Assembly (NCBI RefSeq): GCF_015265455.1
Contig: NZ_CP054492.1
Location: forward strand, 1,674,001 to 1,738,000
Direction of reading: 5' to 3'
From: Candidatus Sulfurimonas baltica
GTDB taxonomy: Bacteria > Campylobacterota > Campylobacteria > Campylobacterales > Sulfurimonadaceae
DNA: 64,000 nucleotides
Shown here: positions 38,545-46,981 of the stretch, in pieces
Numbering within the stretch: position 1 is the first letter of the stretch
Layout of the letters: each line of letters starts with the position of its first letter
The notes under the pieces: generated by a model
Seen by the model: the letters and a program-made list of their open reading frames with translations, nothing else
What the model was told of the DNA's origin: nothing
Databases searched by the model: none
Translations under genes and position numbers: made by a program

Positions 38545-38882
38545 AATTAATACCTCTCGCTTAAGGGACATCATGTCCTTTTAATGGGTTATATGACAAA
38601 TAACGGAACACTTTGTCCAAATAACGGATAATTTCGTGCTAAGTGGACACTCTTTTCATTAAGGATAATAATATAAAAGATAAAAAGATATCAAAAATAT
38701 GACAGTTTGTCATATAATTACTTGAATTTATATTTTGAAGAGGACATTTTTCATGTTCCTTTAATAATTACTATTCAGTGTCTTTGTGTTATAGTGTTCC
38801 TTGAATAAATAGTTGTGTGTACAAATAAACTTTAAATCTAGTTTTGGATAAAATAACAAGATAAATAAACAGAGGTTATTAA
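38545..38882. promoter_or_regulatory. Putative attI and array/intI promoter region
   Basis: A 338-bp gap between divergent intI and the first cassette gene. It holds: a 13-bp palindrome GGACATCATGTCC (38566-38578) beside the intI start; a CAAATAACGGA direct repeat at 38597-38607 and 38618-38628, spaced 21 bp (two helical turns), as IntI-binding direct repeats are in attI1; and ATATGACA-GTT-TGTCATAT (38697-38715) overlapping a TATAAT (38713-38718). GTTAT core-like triplets occur at 38588 and 38876, the latter just before the first ATG. The exact crossover point cannot be read. Confidence 0.6.
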
Positions 38883-41771
38883 ATGTTCCAAAAATCATTA
38901 CTTAAAAATTTTATAAAATCTTTTAATACTCCAAATTATAATGATATTATCAATCTAATTACAAAAGATAAATTTATTGCAGAAGATGCAAATGGTGCTG
39001 AATTTATATCATTATTATCAAAAATGCTAAATTGGACTAACTGTACAAGAGAAGTTAAAAACCTTACAGATATGAAAAAAGCTGATGCTGTAATTTACGA
39101 TAAGAACAACGACCCCATAGCGATAATTGAGCTTAAATCAAGTGATAAGAAAATATCAAATCGCGATATTATCGCTCAAGCTTTCAGATATAAAAATGAA
39201 AAGCCAACTTGTAAATATGTGATAGTTTCAAACTTTGTAAGCTTAGATATTTACAGTGAGAGCAGTGATGTATGTTTTAGTTTAGACATGACTTCCTCAC
39301 AAAGCTATACAATTCTTTATGCCCTACTTTGTCAATCTTCACTAGAAACAAACGAAATAGCAAGACTCAAAAAATATTCAAAGTCACAAGAAGAGATAAC
39401 AAAAGAAGTCTATAAAGAGTATAGTAGTTTTAGACTAAAACTTTTAAATAATCTTATAGAAAACAACAAAGAATTATCACGTGAAAGTATATTTGAATGT
39501 GCAAATAAACTACTTGACAGATTTATGTTTATATTATTTGCCGAAGATAGAGGGCTGATACCTCCAAATAGTATAGATGCTATTATAAACAAATATAAAA
39601 ATGATAAAAAATGGGGCGATAATAAGCCACTATATGAGTATTATAAAAGATATTTTCATTATATAGATATTGGAAATTATGATATAAATATCCCTAAATA
39701 TAATGGTAATCTATTTAAACCGGACGAGCGATTAGAAAATCTAATCATTGATGACCACATAATCAAAGAAGACTTATCAGCACTTAGTGCTAAAGACTTT
39801 AGTGATGATGTTGATGTAGAGGTTTTAGGGCATATTTTTGAGCAGTCTTTAAATGACTTGGAGAAGATAAAAGAGTCACTTTTTGAAGAACATAAAATCG
39901 TTGATACTAGAAAAAAAGATGGTGTTTTTTATACTCCTAAATTTATTACTGAATATATCATTAACAATACAGTGGCAAAACTTTGTAATGACAAAAAAGA
40001 GGTTTTAAAACTTTTTGATGAAGTAAAAGATACAACAAAAGCAAAAGAGAAAAGAAGAGATACTTTACACCTGTACAGAGAATATTTAGAAAGTTTAAAG
40101 ATAGTTGACCCGGCATGTGGAAGTGGAGCTTTTTTAACTGCTTGTTTTAGATTTTTATTAGATGAGCATAAATGGATACAAAATGAACTTTTCAAATATG
40201 AAGCTGGACTTTTTGATTATCACGACATAGACAAGCAAATCATAGAAAATAATCTTTTTGGTGTAGATATAAATAACGCTAGTGTTGGAATAGCTAAACT
40301 TAGCCTTTGGCTTCAAACCGCTAAAAGAGATAGACCACTTTCTAATCTTATGAACAATATTAAAAGTGCAAATTCACTTACAACAGATTGGAACGAGTTA
40401 TTTCCTGATATTATGGCAAATGGTGGATTTGATTGTGTTATTGGTAATCCTCCGTATTTTAATATTCAAACATTGGGAGCGAAATCAGAAGTAGCAAAAG
40501 AGATACAAAAAACCTATCCACATATTTGGCAAGATAAAAGCGACATACTTTTTTATTTTATAGCTAAAGCCATTGAAATAACAAAAAGTAAAGTTGGATT
40601 TATAACGTCAAACGCTTTTTTACATTCTGCTAAAGCTGTAAAATTACGAAATTATATTTTAGAAAATGCACCAATTTCAAAAATTGTAAATTTTGAAAAA
40701 TATATGGTTTTTGAAGATGCTTCCATCACTTCTGCTATTATTGAATTTAATAAAAATAAAAAAGATAGTGAATGTTTAGCATATAATTTTAAAGATAAAG
40801 ATTATGATGTAAATGATATCAATAATACAATTTCTGATATAAAAAACTATTTTGAGGTAACTTTAAAAAAAGATGATGTTTTTGCCTTGGTAGATAAAAA
40901 GATAAGTGCCATGAATGATAAAATAGATAGTATACATCCAAAATTAGACACTTTGTTTAAAATTGGTAAAGGCATGGAAACAGCGGCTGATAAAGTTTTT
41001 TTGTTTAAAGAATATCCCAGCCAATTTCCAAAAGAATTTATAAAGCCTAGAGTAACAGGTAAAAATATAGAAAGATACAGTATTAGCAATAATGAAACAT
41101 ATATTTTATATTTTGAAGATATTGAAAATTTTGAAGATTTGCCTAATTCAATACAAAATCATTTAATTGAAAATAAAGATTTTTTAAAAAATAGAGCTCA
41201 AATAAAACGAAGTAAACATTCTAAATGGTGGAGATTTACGTTTCCTATTCATAAAGAACTCTATCATCATAATAAAATATTTTGTAGCAGAAGAGCATTT
41301 GAAAATACATTTGTGATAGATTGTAATAATGAATATTTAGCATTTTCAAATATGACAACTATTTTTGATACAAATGATAATTTTGATTTAAAATATTTAT
41401 TAGCTCTTTTAAACTCTAAAGTTTTAAATTTTAGATATAAAAGTATTGGCAAGCAAACAGGTGGTGGAAGTTTTGAATATTTTCCCAATGGAGTTGGAAA
41501 ACTACCAATTCCAGATATATCAAAAGAAGAACAAGAACCATTTATAAACTTAGTAAATACCATCATAGAATCAAAAGAAAAAATAACAAAATATAAAAAA
41601 CACTTTGATAGTTTAAATGCTGTTGATAAAATAGAGATACAAGAAGAGATAGAGAAGTTAGAAACCTTGGTTTTAAATAGTGTTAATGAGATTGATAGTT
41701 TGGTTTATGAGCTTTATGGGTTGAGTGGTGATGAAATTGGAATAATAGAGGATAATATAAATGTCAAGTGA
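38883..41771 (+). CDS. Type IIG restriction-modification enzyme (Eco57I/TaqI-like fusion)
   Basis: One 962-residue polypeptide with nuclease, methylase and target recognition. The N-terminal PD-(D/E)xK-type nuclease shows Asp68 (ADAVIYD) and ELK at 83-85. The gamma-class N6-adenine methyltransferase has motif I DPACGSGAF (from Asp409) and motif IV NPPYF (from Asn522). The C-terminal about 350 residues form a TaqI-type specificity domain, with NSKVLNFRYKSIGKQTGGG and VGKLPIP. AGAGG lies 8 nt before the ATG. It overlaps the Shedu-like gene by 11 nt. Both activities appear intact. This is the first gene of the array. Confidence 0.92.
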   Translation: MFQKSLLKNFIKSFNTPNYNDIINLITKDKFIAEDANGAEFISLLSKMLNWTNCTREVKNLTDMKKADAVIYDKNNDPIAIIELKSSDKKISNRDIIAQAFRYKNEKPTCKYVIVSNFVSLDIYSESSDVCFSLDMTSSQSYTILYALLCQSSLETNEIARLKKYSKSQEEITKEVYKEYSSFRLKLLNNLIENNKELSRESIFECANKLLDRFMFILFAEDRGLIPPNSIDAIINKYKNDKKWGDNKPLYEYYKRYFHYIDIGNYDINIPKYNGNLFKPDERLENLIIDDHIIKEDLSALSAKDFSDDVDVEVLGHIFEQSLNDLEKIKESLFEEHKIVDTRKKDGVFYTPKFITEYIINNTVAKLCNDKKEVLKLFDEVKDTTKAKEKRRDTLHLYREYLESLKIVDPACGSGAFLTACFRFLLDEHKWIQNELFKYEAGLFDYHDIDKQIIENNLFGVDINNASVGIAKLSLWLQTAKRDRPLSNLMNNIKSANSLTTDWNELFPDIMANGGFDCVIGNPPYFNIQTLGAKSEVAKEIQKTYPHIWQDKSDILFYFIAKAIEITKSKVGFITSNAFLHSAKAVKLRNYILENAPISKIVNFEKYMVFEDASITSAIIEFNKNKKDSECLAYNFKDKDYDVNDINNTISDIKNYFEVTLKKDDVFALVDKKISAMNDKIDSIHPKLDTLFKIGKGMETAADKVFLFKEYPSQFPKEFIKPRVTGKNIERYSISNNETYILYFEDIENFEDLPNSIQNHLIENKDFLKNRAQIKRSKHSKWWRFTFPIHKELYHHNKIFCSRRAFENTFVIDCNNEYLAFSNMTTIFDTNDNFDLKYLLALLNSKVLNFRYKSIGKQTGGGSFEYFPNGVGKLPIPDISKEEQEPFINLVNTIIESKEKITKYKKHFDSLNAVDKIEIQEEIEKLETLVLNSVNEIDSLVYELYGLSGDEIGIIEDNINVK

Positions 41772-42960
41772 TGATAAAGAATACTATTATTATAGTAAAT
41801 TAGAAGAAAACACATTAAGTGTAAGTCCACAAATCCCATCCAAAGATATAGTTGATGGAAAAGAAATAGAAAACCCTGTGAGAGCTGTTTCTATGAAGTT
41901 TGGAGATAGCGCTGACCATAAAATTCATAAAAAAATTGAAACTAAAGATGGTTTAGAAATCCATTTAAAAACTACGGATACTGGACATCAAGAGATAAAA
42001 GCTTACTTTTATGAGGATACAAGAAATATCCAAACATTAACAATTCAAAGGTGGATGACCAAAACAGGTAATCCACATAAAGAATATATGGTTCTTTATG
42101 GTAAGCAATTAAAGCTGATTTTAGATTTTGTAAACTCATTAAAAGGAATACCCTTAAATGGAAAGAATCGAGTCACACTACCTATTGATTTTGCATTACA
42201 ACAAGTTGATAAGAGTATTAATATTGATAAAGAAACAGTTATTAACTTTTTAAAAGATAATCCATCATTAATAAAAAGTATTGTTGAAAATGAAATTGAT
42301 GAAAGTGATATAACATCTTTAGGATATAGAAAAAAACAACTTAAATTATTTAAAGAGATGCTACTAAATAATAATTTAAATGAATCTAATTGGCAACAAT
42401 TTTTTGAAAAAAATAATTGGATATTTGGATATGGACTTTCTTATATCTTTCATAATGGTTTAGATGAAAAGAAACTAGAACAAGTTGTTAGTGGCTTTGA
42501 CTTTAATAGTTCAGGAAAACGAGTAGATGCGATACTTAAAACAGCAGGATTGATAAACTCTCTTTGTTTTGTTGAAATAAAAACGCATAAGACAGAATTA
42601 TTACAAAGTAAACCTTATAGAGCTGGGTGTTGGGCTGTTTCTAATGAGTTAATAGGTGGAGTTACTCAAATTCAAAATACTGTATCTTTAAATTTAAAAA
42701 AAATATATGGTAAAACTCAAATAAAAGATAAAGATACTGGTGATTTAACAGGTGAAGAATTTTTTAATTTCCAACCAAAATCATTTTTAATAATAGGTTC
42801 TCTATCTCAATTAATAGGTAATAATGCTCCAAATGAGGATAAATTTAGGTCATTTGAATTATTTAGAAAAAATACATTAAATCCTGAGATAATAACATTT
42901 GATGAACTTTATGAAAGAGCTAAATTTATTATATATAGTAAAGATTCTAATCATGCTTAA
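41761..42960 (+). CDS. Shedu-like nuclease (DUF4263)
   Basis: A 399-residue protein. The N-terminal about 190 residues are unrecognised beta-rich sequence; the C-terminal half matches the Shedu SduA nuclease: NNWIFGYGLSYIF, the PD-(D/E)xK pair Asp256 (RVDAIL) and Glu272/Lys274 (FVEIKTHKT), then YRAGCWAVSNELIGGVTQIQ, the most characteristic stretch of DUF4263. SduA proteins are anti-phage nucleases. It overlaps the RM gene by 11 nt and the RhuM gene by 8 nt, so the three are co-translated and may act as one defence unit. Confidence 0.82.
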   Translation: MSSDDKEYYYYSKLEENTLSVSPQIPSKDIVDGKEIENPVRAVSMKFGDSADHKIHKKIETKDGLEIHLKTTDTGHQEIKAYFYEDTRNIQTLTIQRWMTKTGNPHKEYMVLYGKQLKLILDFVNSLKGIPLNGKNRVTLPIDFALQQVDKSINIDKETVINFLKDNPSLIKSIVENEIDESDITSLGYRKKQLKLFKEMLLNNNLNESNWQQFFEKNNWIFGYGLSYIFHNGLDEKKLEQVVSGFDFNSSGKRVDAILKTAGLINSLCFVEIKTHKTELLQSKPYRAGCWAVSNELIGGVTQIQNTVSLNLKKIYGKTQIKDKDTGDLTGEEFFNFQPKSFLIIGSLSQLIGNNAPNEDKFRSFELFRKNTLNPEIITFDELYERAKFIIYSKDSNHA

Positions 42961-43969
42961 AAACCTAACTATAAGTAACTCAACAGCAGAGTTCCTAATC
43001 TACAAATCAGATAATCAAGATGTAAAAGTAGATGTGCTTTTACATGATGAAAATATTTGGCTTACACAAGAACAGATGGCACAGTTGTTTGGTAAAGCAA
43101 AATCAACAATAAATGAACATATTAAAAATATTTTTAAAGATGAAGAGCTTATAGAATTTGATGTTATGCAGAAATTCGGAAATTCCGAATTTCAGCAAAA
43201 AGCACCAAACTATTATAATCTAGATACAATTATTTCTGTTGGATATAGAGTAAAATCAATCCAAGGTGTAAGATTTAGACAATGGGCTACTAAAAGGCTG
43301 CAAGAGTATATCATCAAAGGTTTTACTATGGATGATGAAAGACTTAAAAATCCTGAACAACCATTTGGAAAAGATTATTTTAAAGAGCAATTAGAACGTA
43401 TAAAAGATATTCGTTCAAGTGAGAGAAGATTTTATCAACAAATTACAGATATTTATTCAGAATGCAGTATTGATTATGACAAAAACTCAAAAGCTACAAA
43501 AGATTTTTTTGCCACAGTTCAAAATAAATTGCATTGGGCTATTACAAAACAAACAGCATCTGAAATAATATATTCAAGAGCAAATCATGAAAAAGAAAAC
43601 ATGGGATTAAGCACTTGGAAAAATGCCCCAAGTGGAAGAATAAGAAAAACTGATGTTGTTGTAGCCAAAAATTACCTAGAAGAAAAAGAATTGAAAACAT
43701 TAAATAGAATTGTAACTATGTATCTTGATTATGCAGAACATCAAGCAGAACGTCAAATACCTATGACCATGAACGATTGGAGTAAAAAACTAAATACTTT
43801 TTTAGTGTTCAATGAACATGATATCTTACAAGATGCTGGAAAAGTTACAGCACAAATTGCAAAAGAGTTTGCTATAAGCGAATTTGAAAAATATAAAGTT
43901 ATACAAAATAAATCATATCAGAGTGATTTTGATATATTGCTTGAACAAATAGACAAAGATACAAGGTAA
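42953..43969 (+). CDS. RhuM-family protein
   Basis: 338 residues from ATG 42953 (an in-frame earlier start is unlikely since the RhuM motif begins here). The N-terminal half carries the RhuM pattern: VKVDVLLHDENIWLTQEQMAQLF, a helix-turn-helix-like KSTINEHIKNIFKDEEL, then YYNLDTIISVGYRVKSIQGVRFRQWATKRLQEYI. The C-terminal half contains EKENMGLSTWKNAPSGRIRKTDV, a conserved block. RhuM genes are widespread in genomic islands and beside restriction systems; activity is unsettled. Overlap with the Shedu-like gene suggests function in the same system. Confidence 0.88.
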   Translation: MLKNLTISNSTAEFLIYKSDNQDVKVDVLLHDENIWLTQEQMAQLFGKAKSTINEHIKNIFKDEELIEFDVMQKFGNSEFQQKAPNYYNLDTIISVGYRVKSIQGVRFRQWATKRLQEYIIKGFTMDDERLKNPEQPFGKDYFKEQLERIKDIRSSERRFYQQITDIYSECSIDYDKNSKATKDFFATVQNKLHWAITKQTASEIIYSRANHEKENMGLSTWKNAPSGRIRKTDVVVAKNYLEEKELKTLNRIVTMYLDYAEHQAERQIPMTMNDWSKKLNTFLVFNEHDILQDAGKVTAQIAKEFAISEFEKYKVIQNKSYQSDFDILLEQIDKDTR

Positions 43970-43975
43970 GCAAAA

Positions 43976-44031
43976 CACACAACAAGTACTAGCAGTGAAC
44001 GCATAGCGTCACTGAAGATGAACGTTAGCAG
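43976..44031 (+). repeat. attC site A (after the RM-Shedu-RhuM block)
   Basis: ACAACAAGTACTAGCAGTGAACGC then GCGTCACTG ... GAACGTTAGC: a 9-10 bp stem (CAGTGAACGC against GCGTCACTG with one unpaired base) flanked by ACAAC and GTTAGC boxes. Its stem differs from the two main families below. Confidence 0.65.
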
Positions 44032-44816: not shown

Positions 44817-46100
44817 ATGAATTACATTGAAAAAGTAACTATCGAAGGCTTTTGGGGAGAACGAACCTTAATATTTGATTTTAATGATGATGTTAATTTT
44901 ATTATTGGGATAAATGGATCAGGTAAAACTACAGCTGTCAATATTATTGTTGCAGCATTAACTGCAGATTTTTCTGAATTAGATAGTTTGGAATTTTCCA
45001 AAATAGAGATTAAACTCAAGTCTAAAAATAGTAGAAAAAAGCCATCTGTTACAATTACAAAAAACGATGTAAAAGAACAACCTTTTGCGTCTATTGAATA
45101 TGAAATCAAAGAATCAGCTAGCGATAAACCACACACACTTTCTTTAGATGATTTTGAAGAGCAAATGATGCTTAGGCGTTATCCTAAACATCTTTTAGAG
45201 AGAGAACTATATAGACGTCATGGAAGTAATATAGCTTCTATTTTAAATAAACTAGTTAATGTTAGCTGGCTCTCAGTACAAAGAGCTAGTGCATCGCGCA
45301 ATGAAGATGAAAGATATGAGTCTACAGTTGATCGCAAACTTAAAGAACTATCTAACCGCCTTGTAAGATATTTCTCATCCTTAAATAAGGATGGTTCCGA
45401 ACTAGTTGAAAATTTTCAAAAGACAGTATTTTTGTCTATGTTGTACAGAAAAAACAACAAGCCACTTTTTGCTGAAGTAAAAGGCATTAAGCTTGAAGAA
45501 GAAAAAAGAGCGCTCGAAGGTATTTTTAGTCAATTTAAAGTTCCATCAAAAGATTTTCAAAGTAAGTTAGATAATCATTTCAATGCACTTAAAACAGCTA
45601 AAAATAAACTTTTAGGATTAGAAGAAAATAAAGAAGGTTTATCTACACAAGATATTTCTGTTTTAATGTCTACCGAACGAATTGACTATATTGTTGATGA
45701 GTGGAATAGACTTTTAGAAGAAAGAAAAGCTATTTTAGAACCAAAAGACACCTTCCTTTCCATTATTAATGAAATGATGCAAAGAAAGGAATTTTCTATT
45801 AACTCACAAAATGAGCTTCAAGTGACCACCCAATCTGGTAAAAATTTACCAATTCATCGACTTTCTTCTGGAGAAAAACAGTTAATCATTGTATTAGGGG
45901 AAGCTTTACTTCAAGAAAAAAGAACTTGGGTTTATATTGCAGATGAGCCTGAATTATCTTTACATGTACGTTGGCAAGAAAATTTGGTTGAAAATCTTCG
46001 AGCAATCAATCCAAACTCACAAATAATATTTGCAACACACTCCCCTGATGTCGTTAGTATTTTTGACAATAAAGTATTTGATATGGAGAATATGTTCTAA
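44817..46100 (+). CDS. AAA/ABC-type ATPase of a PARIS-like defence pair (AriA-like)
   Basis: 427 residues with a SMC/ABC-type ATPase: Walker A GINGSGKT (31-38), signature LSSGEKQ (349-355), Walker B IADEPELSL (Asp376, Glu377) and ATHSPD with His408, with a coiled-coil-like middle. All catalytic residues are kept. It overlaps the DUF4435 gene by one base (TAATG), the PARIS layout: AriA is the phage-protein sensor ATPase and AriB its effector. Other AAA-plus-nuclease systems (OLD-, Septu-like) are possible, but the DUF4435 partner favours PARIS. Confidence 0.75.
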   Translation: MNYIEKVTIEGFWGERTLIFDFNDDVNFIIGINGSGKTTAVNIIVAALTADFSELDSLEFSKIEIKLKSKNSRKKPSVTITKNDVKEQPFASIEYEIKESASDKPHTLSLDDFEEQMMLRRYPKHLLERELYRRHGSNIASILNKLVNVSWLSVQRASASRNEDERYESTVDRKLKELSNRLVRYFSSLNKDGSELVENFQKTVFLSMLYRKNNKPLFAEVKGIKLEEEKRALEGIFSQFKVPSKDFQSKLDNHFNALKTAKNKLLGLEENKEGLSTQDISVLMSTERIDYIVDEWNRLLEERKAILEPKDTFLSIINEMMQRKEFSINSQNELQVTTQSGKNLPIHRLSSGEKQLIIVLGEALLQEKRTWVYIADEPELSLHVRWQENLVENLRAINPNSQIIFATHSPDVVSIFDNKVFDMENMF

Positions 46101-46981
46101 TGTCATTTACAAGAACCAGATCCGGATTATCAAATTTACACCTTTTTTATGACTCAGATTTAATTGTTTTCACAGAAGGTGGTACTCAAACATTCACTTT
46201 GCAAGAAATTGAAGAAGGCAAGCACAATACATACTCAGTTGATATTAAATTCTGGAAAAATATCTTTGACATAAATGGGTTAGAAAAAAAAGTAAGTTTT
46301 AGAGCGATTGGCTCAAAAACTGCTTCAAAATCATTTTGTGAAAAAATTGTAAATGGTGAAATTCACAATATTGTTGTTGCAAAAGATCGTGATCTTGATG
46401 AATATGTAGATACTATCTATACTTCACCATTTATTCTCTATACCAAAGGGTATAGTTGGGAAAATGATGTATTTATTAAAGATTTAACACACGAGCAGAT
46501 AGAAAATATGCTTTTAACTGCAGAAACTCCAGAGGAAGTAAACTCCATTATTGATAAAGCATTTAATGACTTTAAAAGAATTGGAAAAAACTTGGCAAAA
46601 CTAGAAATTATGTTTAGAAAAAATGGTGTCAAGTTTATTTCTAATATGAATGGTGAACGCTTTTTTAATGCTAAAACACATGCCGTGATAAATAAAGAGC
46701 AGTTTTTTCAAGTTTTAAAAGAAAAAAAAGTTCTATTAGATAAACCAAGAATGACAACTTTTTCTGGGCCAAATATCTGTCCGTTTATGACCAACTATGG
46801 AAAACTTTTAGAAGCCCTTTCTATGACTGTAATAAGTTATATATGTAAACGATTTTGCAATATTAAATCGATACCCAAAGATATTATTATAACTTCCATG
46901 ATTGAAAGATTTGCAAATAAGATAAAGCGTGTTAGAGATGAATATTATTTCAATTTAGTAACTAACCTGCAAAATGCTTAA
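46100..46981 (+). CDS. DUF4435 (TOPRIM-like) effector, AriB-like
   Basis: 293 residues with the DUF4435 pattern: IVFTEGGTQ with Glu26 as the expected TOPRIM acidic residue, DIKFWKNIF, GSKTASKSF, and VAKDRDLDEY with Asp96, Asp98 and Asp100 as the metal-binding cluster, then TKGYSWENDVF, matching the family's tyrosine-Glu-Asn motif. In PARIS, AriB is released on sensing phage anti-restriction proteins and cuts tRNA, shutting down the cell; whether this homologue does so is inferred. Confidence 0.75.
   Translation: MSFTRTRSGLSNLHLFYDSDLIVFTEGGTQTFTLQEIEEGKHNTYSVDIKFWKNIFDINGLEKKVSFRAIGSKTASKSFCEKIVNGEIHNIVVAKDRDLDEYVDTIYTSPFILYTKGYSWENDVFIKDLTHEQIENMLLTAETPEEVNSIIDKAFNDFKRIGKNLAKLEIMFRKNGVKFISNMNGERFFNAKTHAVINKEQFFQVLKEKKVLLDKPRMTTFSGPNICPFMTNYGKLLEALSMTVISYICKRFCNIKSIPKDIIITSMIERFANKIKRVRDEYYFNLVTNLQNA

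Follow-up and report, generated by a model that had tools for sequence, protein, structure and literature searches.

How an integron integrase gene can be controlled without LexA is a question that matters in Sulfurimonas, a LexA-free genus in which intI is common. An intI match was found in 42 of 100 Sulfurimonas genomes and in 73 of 398 genomes of the order, with an intact frame in most of the best matches listed. The window analyzed here, a stretch of 64,000 nucleotides from the single-contig genome (2,737,757 bases) of Candidatus Sulfurimonas baltica, contains one such gene. An earlier sequence-only reading of the window noted direct repeats beside intI that resemble the IntI-binding repeats of attI1, together with palindromes that could belong to another regulator. 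The neighboring gene is indeed intI, as that reading said; its product scores 411 bits against the integron integrase family profile TIGR02249, for which the cut-off is 265 bits. The closest named relatives of the integrase are Sulfurimonas records; among solved structures, its best relative is 2A3V, from V. cholerae. The gene most likely starts at the ATG at 38544-38542, which is shared with relatives. The open frame extends to 38574, and the longer frame would overlap GGACATCATGTCC.

Comparison of relatives, together with the first attC, places the joining of cassettes at G38812^T38813. Homology among relatives stops at this point, and to the right of the core they carry unrelated cassettes. 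The left end of attC1, CACACAAC at 43976-43983, exactly complements the junction GTTGTGTG at 38812-38819, so that the R'' of attC1 is complementary to the start of its own cassette. Given this complementarity and the position of the crossover, the first cassette therefore spans the interval listed in Table 1; more attC repeats lie to the right of attC1. The locus thus has an intI, attC sites and an attI crossover, as expected of an integron. This comparison identifies the region as the attI site belonging to a chromosomal Sulfurimonas integron, in agreement with the attI-type arrangement that had been suggested. The first cassette is a 5.2-kb multi-gene defense cassette located right behind the probable cassette promoter. 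A later cassette (44817-46981) encodes an ATPase, with AriA as the best PADLOC match (1.8e-42), followed by an unmatched 293-aa gene, and the two may be a PARIS-like pair.

Related loci were used to identify what is conserved to the left of the crossover. Enough upstream sequence was available for 75 distinct loci, 63 of which have the core AATAAATAG^TT or a close variant, and removal of one duplicate left 62 loci for alignment. The core pattern served to select the loci, so its conservation among the 62 is partly by choice; it was found in 26 of the 38 held-out loci with at least 270 nt, which were chosen without the pattern. The 12 loci left out include three with a slightly different core (L009, L038 and L062), and the rest are truncated, rearranged or distant. 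The 11-mer AATAAATAGTT by itself is not diagnostic of attI: counting both strands, the genome has 19 copies, and only four of these belong to attI sites or remnants.

The 62-locus alignment reveals eight conserved half-sites of the form TG-NNN-(G)TTA, distributed over 245 bp from the intI leader through the intI promoter (PintI) to the cassette promoter (Pc) (Table 1). The half-sites, or boxes, are read outward from TG, and the number H6 is not used. H1/H2 and H3/H4 form CA-N3-TG dyads and H7/H8 forms a CA-N7-TG dyad; the two CA-N3-TG dyads and the single H5 are located in the intI leader. The aligned TG is kept in 39 to 60 of the 62 loci, depending on the box, and at least six boxes are kept in 50 loci. 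The outer part of H4 is inconstant in orientation (inverted and GTTA-like in 29 loci, direct in 28, other in 5), and H9 is oriented contrary to what is expected of a core L site. The half-sites of a recombining pair are separated by a spacer of 6-8 bp, which the CA-N3-TG dyads lack.

Table 1. Features of the attI region and its surroundings, in window positions.
Feature	Position	Strand	Remarks
intI, integron integrase, 322 aa	37576-38544	minus	TIGR02249; ATG conserved in relatives
Half-site H1	38561-38570	minus	62-locus alignment; intI leader
Half-site H2	38574-38583	plus	62-locus alignment; intI leader
Half-site H3	38601-38610	minus	62-locus alignment
Half-site H4	38614-38624	plus	62-locus alignment
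Half-site H5, single	38640-38649	minus	just downstream of probable intI transcription start
Probable PintI: TTGATA (38694-38689), 18 bp, TATTAT (38670-38665)	38665-38694	minus	consensus scan; -10 region conserved
Dyad P, ATATGACA-GTT-TGTCATAT, core CA-N3-TG	38697-38715		not one of the boxes
Half-site H7	38737-38746	minus	62-locus alignment
Half-site H8	38754-38763	plus	62-locus alignment
Probable Pc -10, TATAGT here	38790-38795	plus	conserved columns
Half-site H9	38795-38805	plus	overlaps end of probable Pc -10, adjoins core
attI core AATAAATAG^TT	38804-38814	plus	homology of relatives stops here
First cassette: type IIG restriction-methylation gene, Shedu (SduA) gene, RhuM gene	38813-44024	plus	
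attC1	43976-44030	plus	left end complementary to cassette start

The direct repeats and the first of the two palindromes that had drawn attention to the region are parts of this larger array. CAAATAACGGA is present twice, at 38597-38607 and 38618-38628, with the 21-bp spacing reported, and its copies overlap H3 and H4. Both palindromes are also present, and the first, GGACATCATGTCC (38566-38578), is the center of the H1/H2 half-sites rather than the site of another regulator. One explanation of the region takes the two direct repeats, two helical turns apart and homologous to DR1/DR2 of attI1, as the accessory sites. In the window the two 11-bp copies do match exactly, as this explanation supposes, but among the 62 loci this is the only one with an exact repeat (9 nt or longer, spaced 20-22 bp), and the other 61 have nothing comparable. 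The second copy has its outer half inverted and GTTA-like in 29 of the 62. The pair of direct repeats left of the core that characterizes attI1 is therefore refuted as a conserved feature and ruled out as the unit, which leaves this explanation scarcely credible. The sequence-only reading had named a lack of conservation in related strains, and cassettes joining elsewhere, as evidence that would count against it; besides the lack of conservation, the crossover lies ~180 bp to the right of the repeats. What survives of the proposal is that accessory sites for IntI are present, which covariation makes very likely, with a unit other than the 21-bp-spaced repeat.

The NNN bases of the boxes vary among loci, with TCC, TTC, TGT and ATT among the versions seen, whereas the boxes of any one locus tend to share them. 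Within-locus agreement is 0.608, compared to 0.480 after shuffling, and none of 300 shuffles reached as high a value. Agreement between individual boxes spans z 1.2 (H5-H8) to z 7.8 (H2-H5). In 31 independent pairs from the IntI tree, which control for relatedness, 40 of 163 joint box changes are identical, while 1000 shuffles averaged 11.7 and never exceeded 23. For example, L019 and L107, whose integrases are alike at 264 of 322 residues, differ as TCC versus TGT in H2, H4, H5 and H7 together. L022 and L028, which derive from one MAG, have boxes that are partly different and integrases alike at 313 of 321 residues.

In the training loci, every variable IntI column was compared with the bases of the boxes. 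The column most strongly associated with the middle base, out of 237, is residue 257 (numbered on the 332-aa frame), with an excess of 0.61 bits, followed by residue 188 with 0.40 bits. The top column for the first box base is 255, and for the third base the order is 68, 73 and then 257. Lys or Arg at 257 accompanies a middle C, and Gln, Val or Ala accompanies T, G or A; in the window IntI the residue is Lys (codon 37806-37804). Among training loci without ties (53 of 62 scored), Lys/Arg occurs with C in 18 of 21 and other residues occur without C in 31 of 32. Over all scored loci, the rule is broken by Lys with T in three cases and by Asn and Ala with C in one case each.

In the form first obtained from the training loci, the rule pairs Lys with C, and Gln or Ala with either T or G. 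It was next tried on loci that had not entered the scan. Of 102 candidates, 45 were dropped as duplicates or because their IntI shared 98% or more of its residues with one in the set, which left 57. The box class could be scored in 35 of these; the remainder had too few boxes (under three), showed a tie or lacked the residue. Lys/Arg is paired with C in 12 of 12 of these loci, other residues are found without C in 22 of 23, and Val is paired with A in 5 of 5. Residue 257 again ranks first, now of 216 columns (0.96 bits), with the neighboring residue 256 second. It could be argued that the link is a by-product of shared ancestry: intI and attI, being linked, would pass down as a unit, and column 257 would be just one lineage marker among many. 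Residues 188, 132 and 68 do carry some association as well. However, this explanation does not account for the first rank of residue 257 in both sets, nor for 13 independent pairs differing in Lys/Arg versus another residue, taken from an 88-tip tree built without column 257, of which 10 are concordant, none discordant and three without a box change. The chemistry is also against it, since Lys and Arg fit opposite G. Shared ancestry is thus a distinctly improbable source of the link. Because the link held in held-out loci and in independent pairs, IntI itself is the likely reader of the boxes.

The position of residue 257 in the protein is consistent with such a role. In a phmmer alignment it corresponds to Q221 of XerD, four residues before a histidine; an hhalign alignment of IntI with Cre was too weak in the relevant helix, and the XerD alignment was used instead. 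Q221 may itself be a specificity residue; the texts consulted contain no statement to that effect. The aligned histidine we take, from its place in the motif, to be the H225 discussed in PMC5241119. Passages of that paper give XerD H225 and XerC K222 as the counterparts of XerH K290, which is modeled in base contact, and describe the XerH helix 285-299 as inserted into the major groove. For Cre, R259 of helix J is described in part of PMC7438526 as a specificity determinant. The alignment of residue 257 near XerD H225, the XerH groove helix and Cre R259 therefore puts the link where a tyrosine recombinase would read DNA. Within a locus the sites have concordant NNN bases, and the middle one varies with a residue in this DNA-reading helix; we therefore strongly infer that each half-site is bound by a cognate IntI monomer.

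The boxes are also largely a property of attI sites. Allowing up to two mismatches, TAANNGGACANNNTGTYCNNTTA occurs at seven forward places in the 2.74 Mb genome, more than chance would give (one for the reversed control); four of the seven fall in two attI sites, and elsewhere in the genome the boxes are almost missing. A further attI lies beside a broken intI copy on the same chromosome (L089, ~1289.4-1290.4 kb). An attI remnant with only the start of intI is found at ~934.9 kb (L121), and another without intI at ~1461.7 kb (L124). These two remnants, which may be decayed, carry boxes of another class (TGTGTGTTA-like). Different box classes likewise occur side by side in a second genome, between its two integrons L107 and L161. 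In L009, L034, L057 and L116 a near-identical start of the first cassette (GTTGCCTCGGACGCTTCGCTTACCGAGGCAACGGGG) is found behind attI sites of different box classes, and cassette compatibility therefore seems independent of class.

The location of the array suggests a connection with transcription. Boxes H5 to H1 occupy the stretch that separates the probable PintI from the start of intI. H9 runs into the probable -10 of Pc, a position that reads TATAAT in most loci, just before the core. LexA is not available to control these promoters, as had been supposed for Campylobacterota: its DNA-binding domain (PF01726) was found in none of 60 Sulfurimonas genomes, compared with 10 of 14 named genomes in a control search. 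Even with one mismatch allowed, CTGT-N8-ACAG does not occur between 31884 and 40062 of the window, so that both a LexA protein and a LexA box in PintI, the marks of SOS-controlled intI, were lacking in these searches. The absence of LexA, and the placement of boxes at PintI, the intI leader and Pc in positions suited to a repressor, could indicate that the boxes are operators of a host-encoded LexA substitute and that IntI does not read them. Such a regulator would not be expected to track an IntI residue, yet the middle base does so, held-out loci included. Half-sites that occur as singles and as dyads of two spacings are unlike the sites of a dimeric repressor, and box dyads are nearly absent outside attI. 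Two box classes within one genome, one of them known here from possibly decayed remnants, are not easily explained by a host regulator, and the same holds for the second genome. A host regulator is accordingly an unlikely reader of the boxes.

Another conceivable role for the dyads is at the RNA level, as hairpins of the intI leader. A short hairpin at 38560-38585 does fold (-5.1 kcal/mol, z -2.0), but the whole 116-nt leader folds like its shuffles (z -0.53), and H7, H8 and H9 change with the other boxes yet lie outside the predicted intI transcript. There is very little likelihood that RNA structure explains the array.

The explanation that we regard as probable is an attI platform with the crossover at G38812^T38813 and eight half-sites, each bound by a cognate IntI monomer, in which the array would both aid recombination and make intI and Pc self-limiting. 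Several observations speak against it: the inconstant orientation of H4, the spacing of the CA-N3-TG dyads, the direction of H9, the loci that break the residue rule, and the partly different boxes of L022 and L028 despite their near-identical integrases. Judging from position, the array would gather integrase at attI and help attI x attC recombination. Abundant IntI on H1-H5 would, by the same reasoning, block intI transcription, and IntI on H9, given where that box lies, would compete with RNA polymerase at Pc. The result would be a self-limiting circuit in a genus without LexA, the autoregulation being predicted from where the boxes stand.

The second palindrome, dyad P, does not belong to this array. 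Its CA-N3-TG core is present in 98-100% of the 62 loci, and its bases do not covary with those of the boxes; on this evidence it is a separate element. Dyad P would be used by something other than IntI. The TATAAT said to overlap it is not conserved, the consensus there being TATTTTT (62 loci). With up to one mismatch, TATGACANNNTGTCATA occurs at ten places in the genome, again more than chance would give (none for the reversed control), four of which are attI sites or remnants, and without mismatch it occurs in 58 of 100 Sulfurimonas genomes; dyad P is therefore not specific to intI. A role as an SOS-like regulon operator was considered and rejected, as the other genomic places, with genes read by eye, point to no DNA-repair gene set. 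Of 29 distinct TATGACANNNTGTCATA places not recognized as attI among the loci retrieved, 17 lie at most 30 nt behind a stop codon, a hint of a terminator. Several TATGACANNNTGTCATA places stand behind a gene of 173-175 aa that resembles peptide deformylase. A terminator is nevertheless not supported: the halves are often not complementary, with the two variable positions alike in 31 and 35 of 59 loci, and a terminator scan found none. In L015, an insertion of ~34 nt splits dyad P upstream of its intI.

The array invites comparison with characterized sites. Passages of PMC8946536 and PMC8191803 describe two accessory direct repeats in attI1 that favor attI1 x attC recombination. Like attI1, with its L, R, DR1 and DR2, the Sulfurimonas site is a double-stranded attI with a core and additional sites on the left, for which integrase binding is here predicted from covariation. 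Unlike attI1, as far as it is described there, it has eight direct and inverted half-sites over 245 bp that reach the intI leader, and the array is chromosomal and conserved through the order. Like V. cholerae attIA, it is the primary insertion site of a chromosomal integron and adjoins Pc. However, attIA has no direct repeats (PMC8191803) and intIA is controlled by LexA and CRP (PMC8946536), whereas here an array is present and LexA was not found in the 60 genomes searched of the genus. With dif/XerH and loxP/Cre it shares a tyrosine recombinase whose arm specificity involves residues of a major-groove helix (parts of PMC5241119 and PMC7438526). Those sites have one arm pair around a spacer, whereas most half-sites here are not in recombining geometry. 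The larger accessory array beside chromosomal intI genes would be a variant of the known attI accessory sites. No such array was described in the literature searched on Campylobacterota, epsilonproteobacterial or Sulfurimonas integrons, attI or integrase specificity, a search that had most subscription journals outside its coverage.

Finally, boxes that change in step with one IntI residue suggest that the integrase reads them, and it may use them to control its own gene. A broader proposal, which we advance tentatively and think somewhat doubtful as a whole, is that integrons of this LexA-free order self-regulate, with the IntI-read eight-box array combining three roles: landing platform, operator for both intI and Pc and, through residue 257 and the middle base, an identity code that separates integrons in one genome. 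According to the portion of PMC8946536 consulted, the few known cases of SOS-independent intI accompany loss of integron function. Accessory repeats are stated in a passage of PMC8191803 to be absent from most attI sites, including attIA, and are suggested to have arisen on mobilization. Contrary to that supposition, as worded in the passage, the array argues that accessory attI sites are not special to mobile integrons. It also yields a residue-to-base rule for the specificity of integron integrases. A conserved array read by the integrase would offer a direct answer to how intI can be controlled without LexA.
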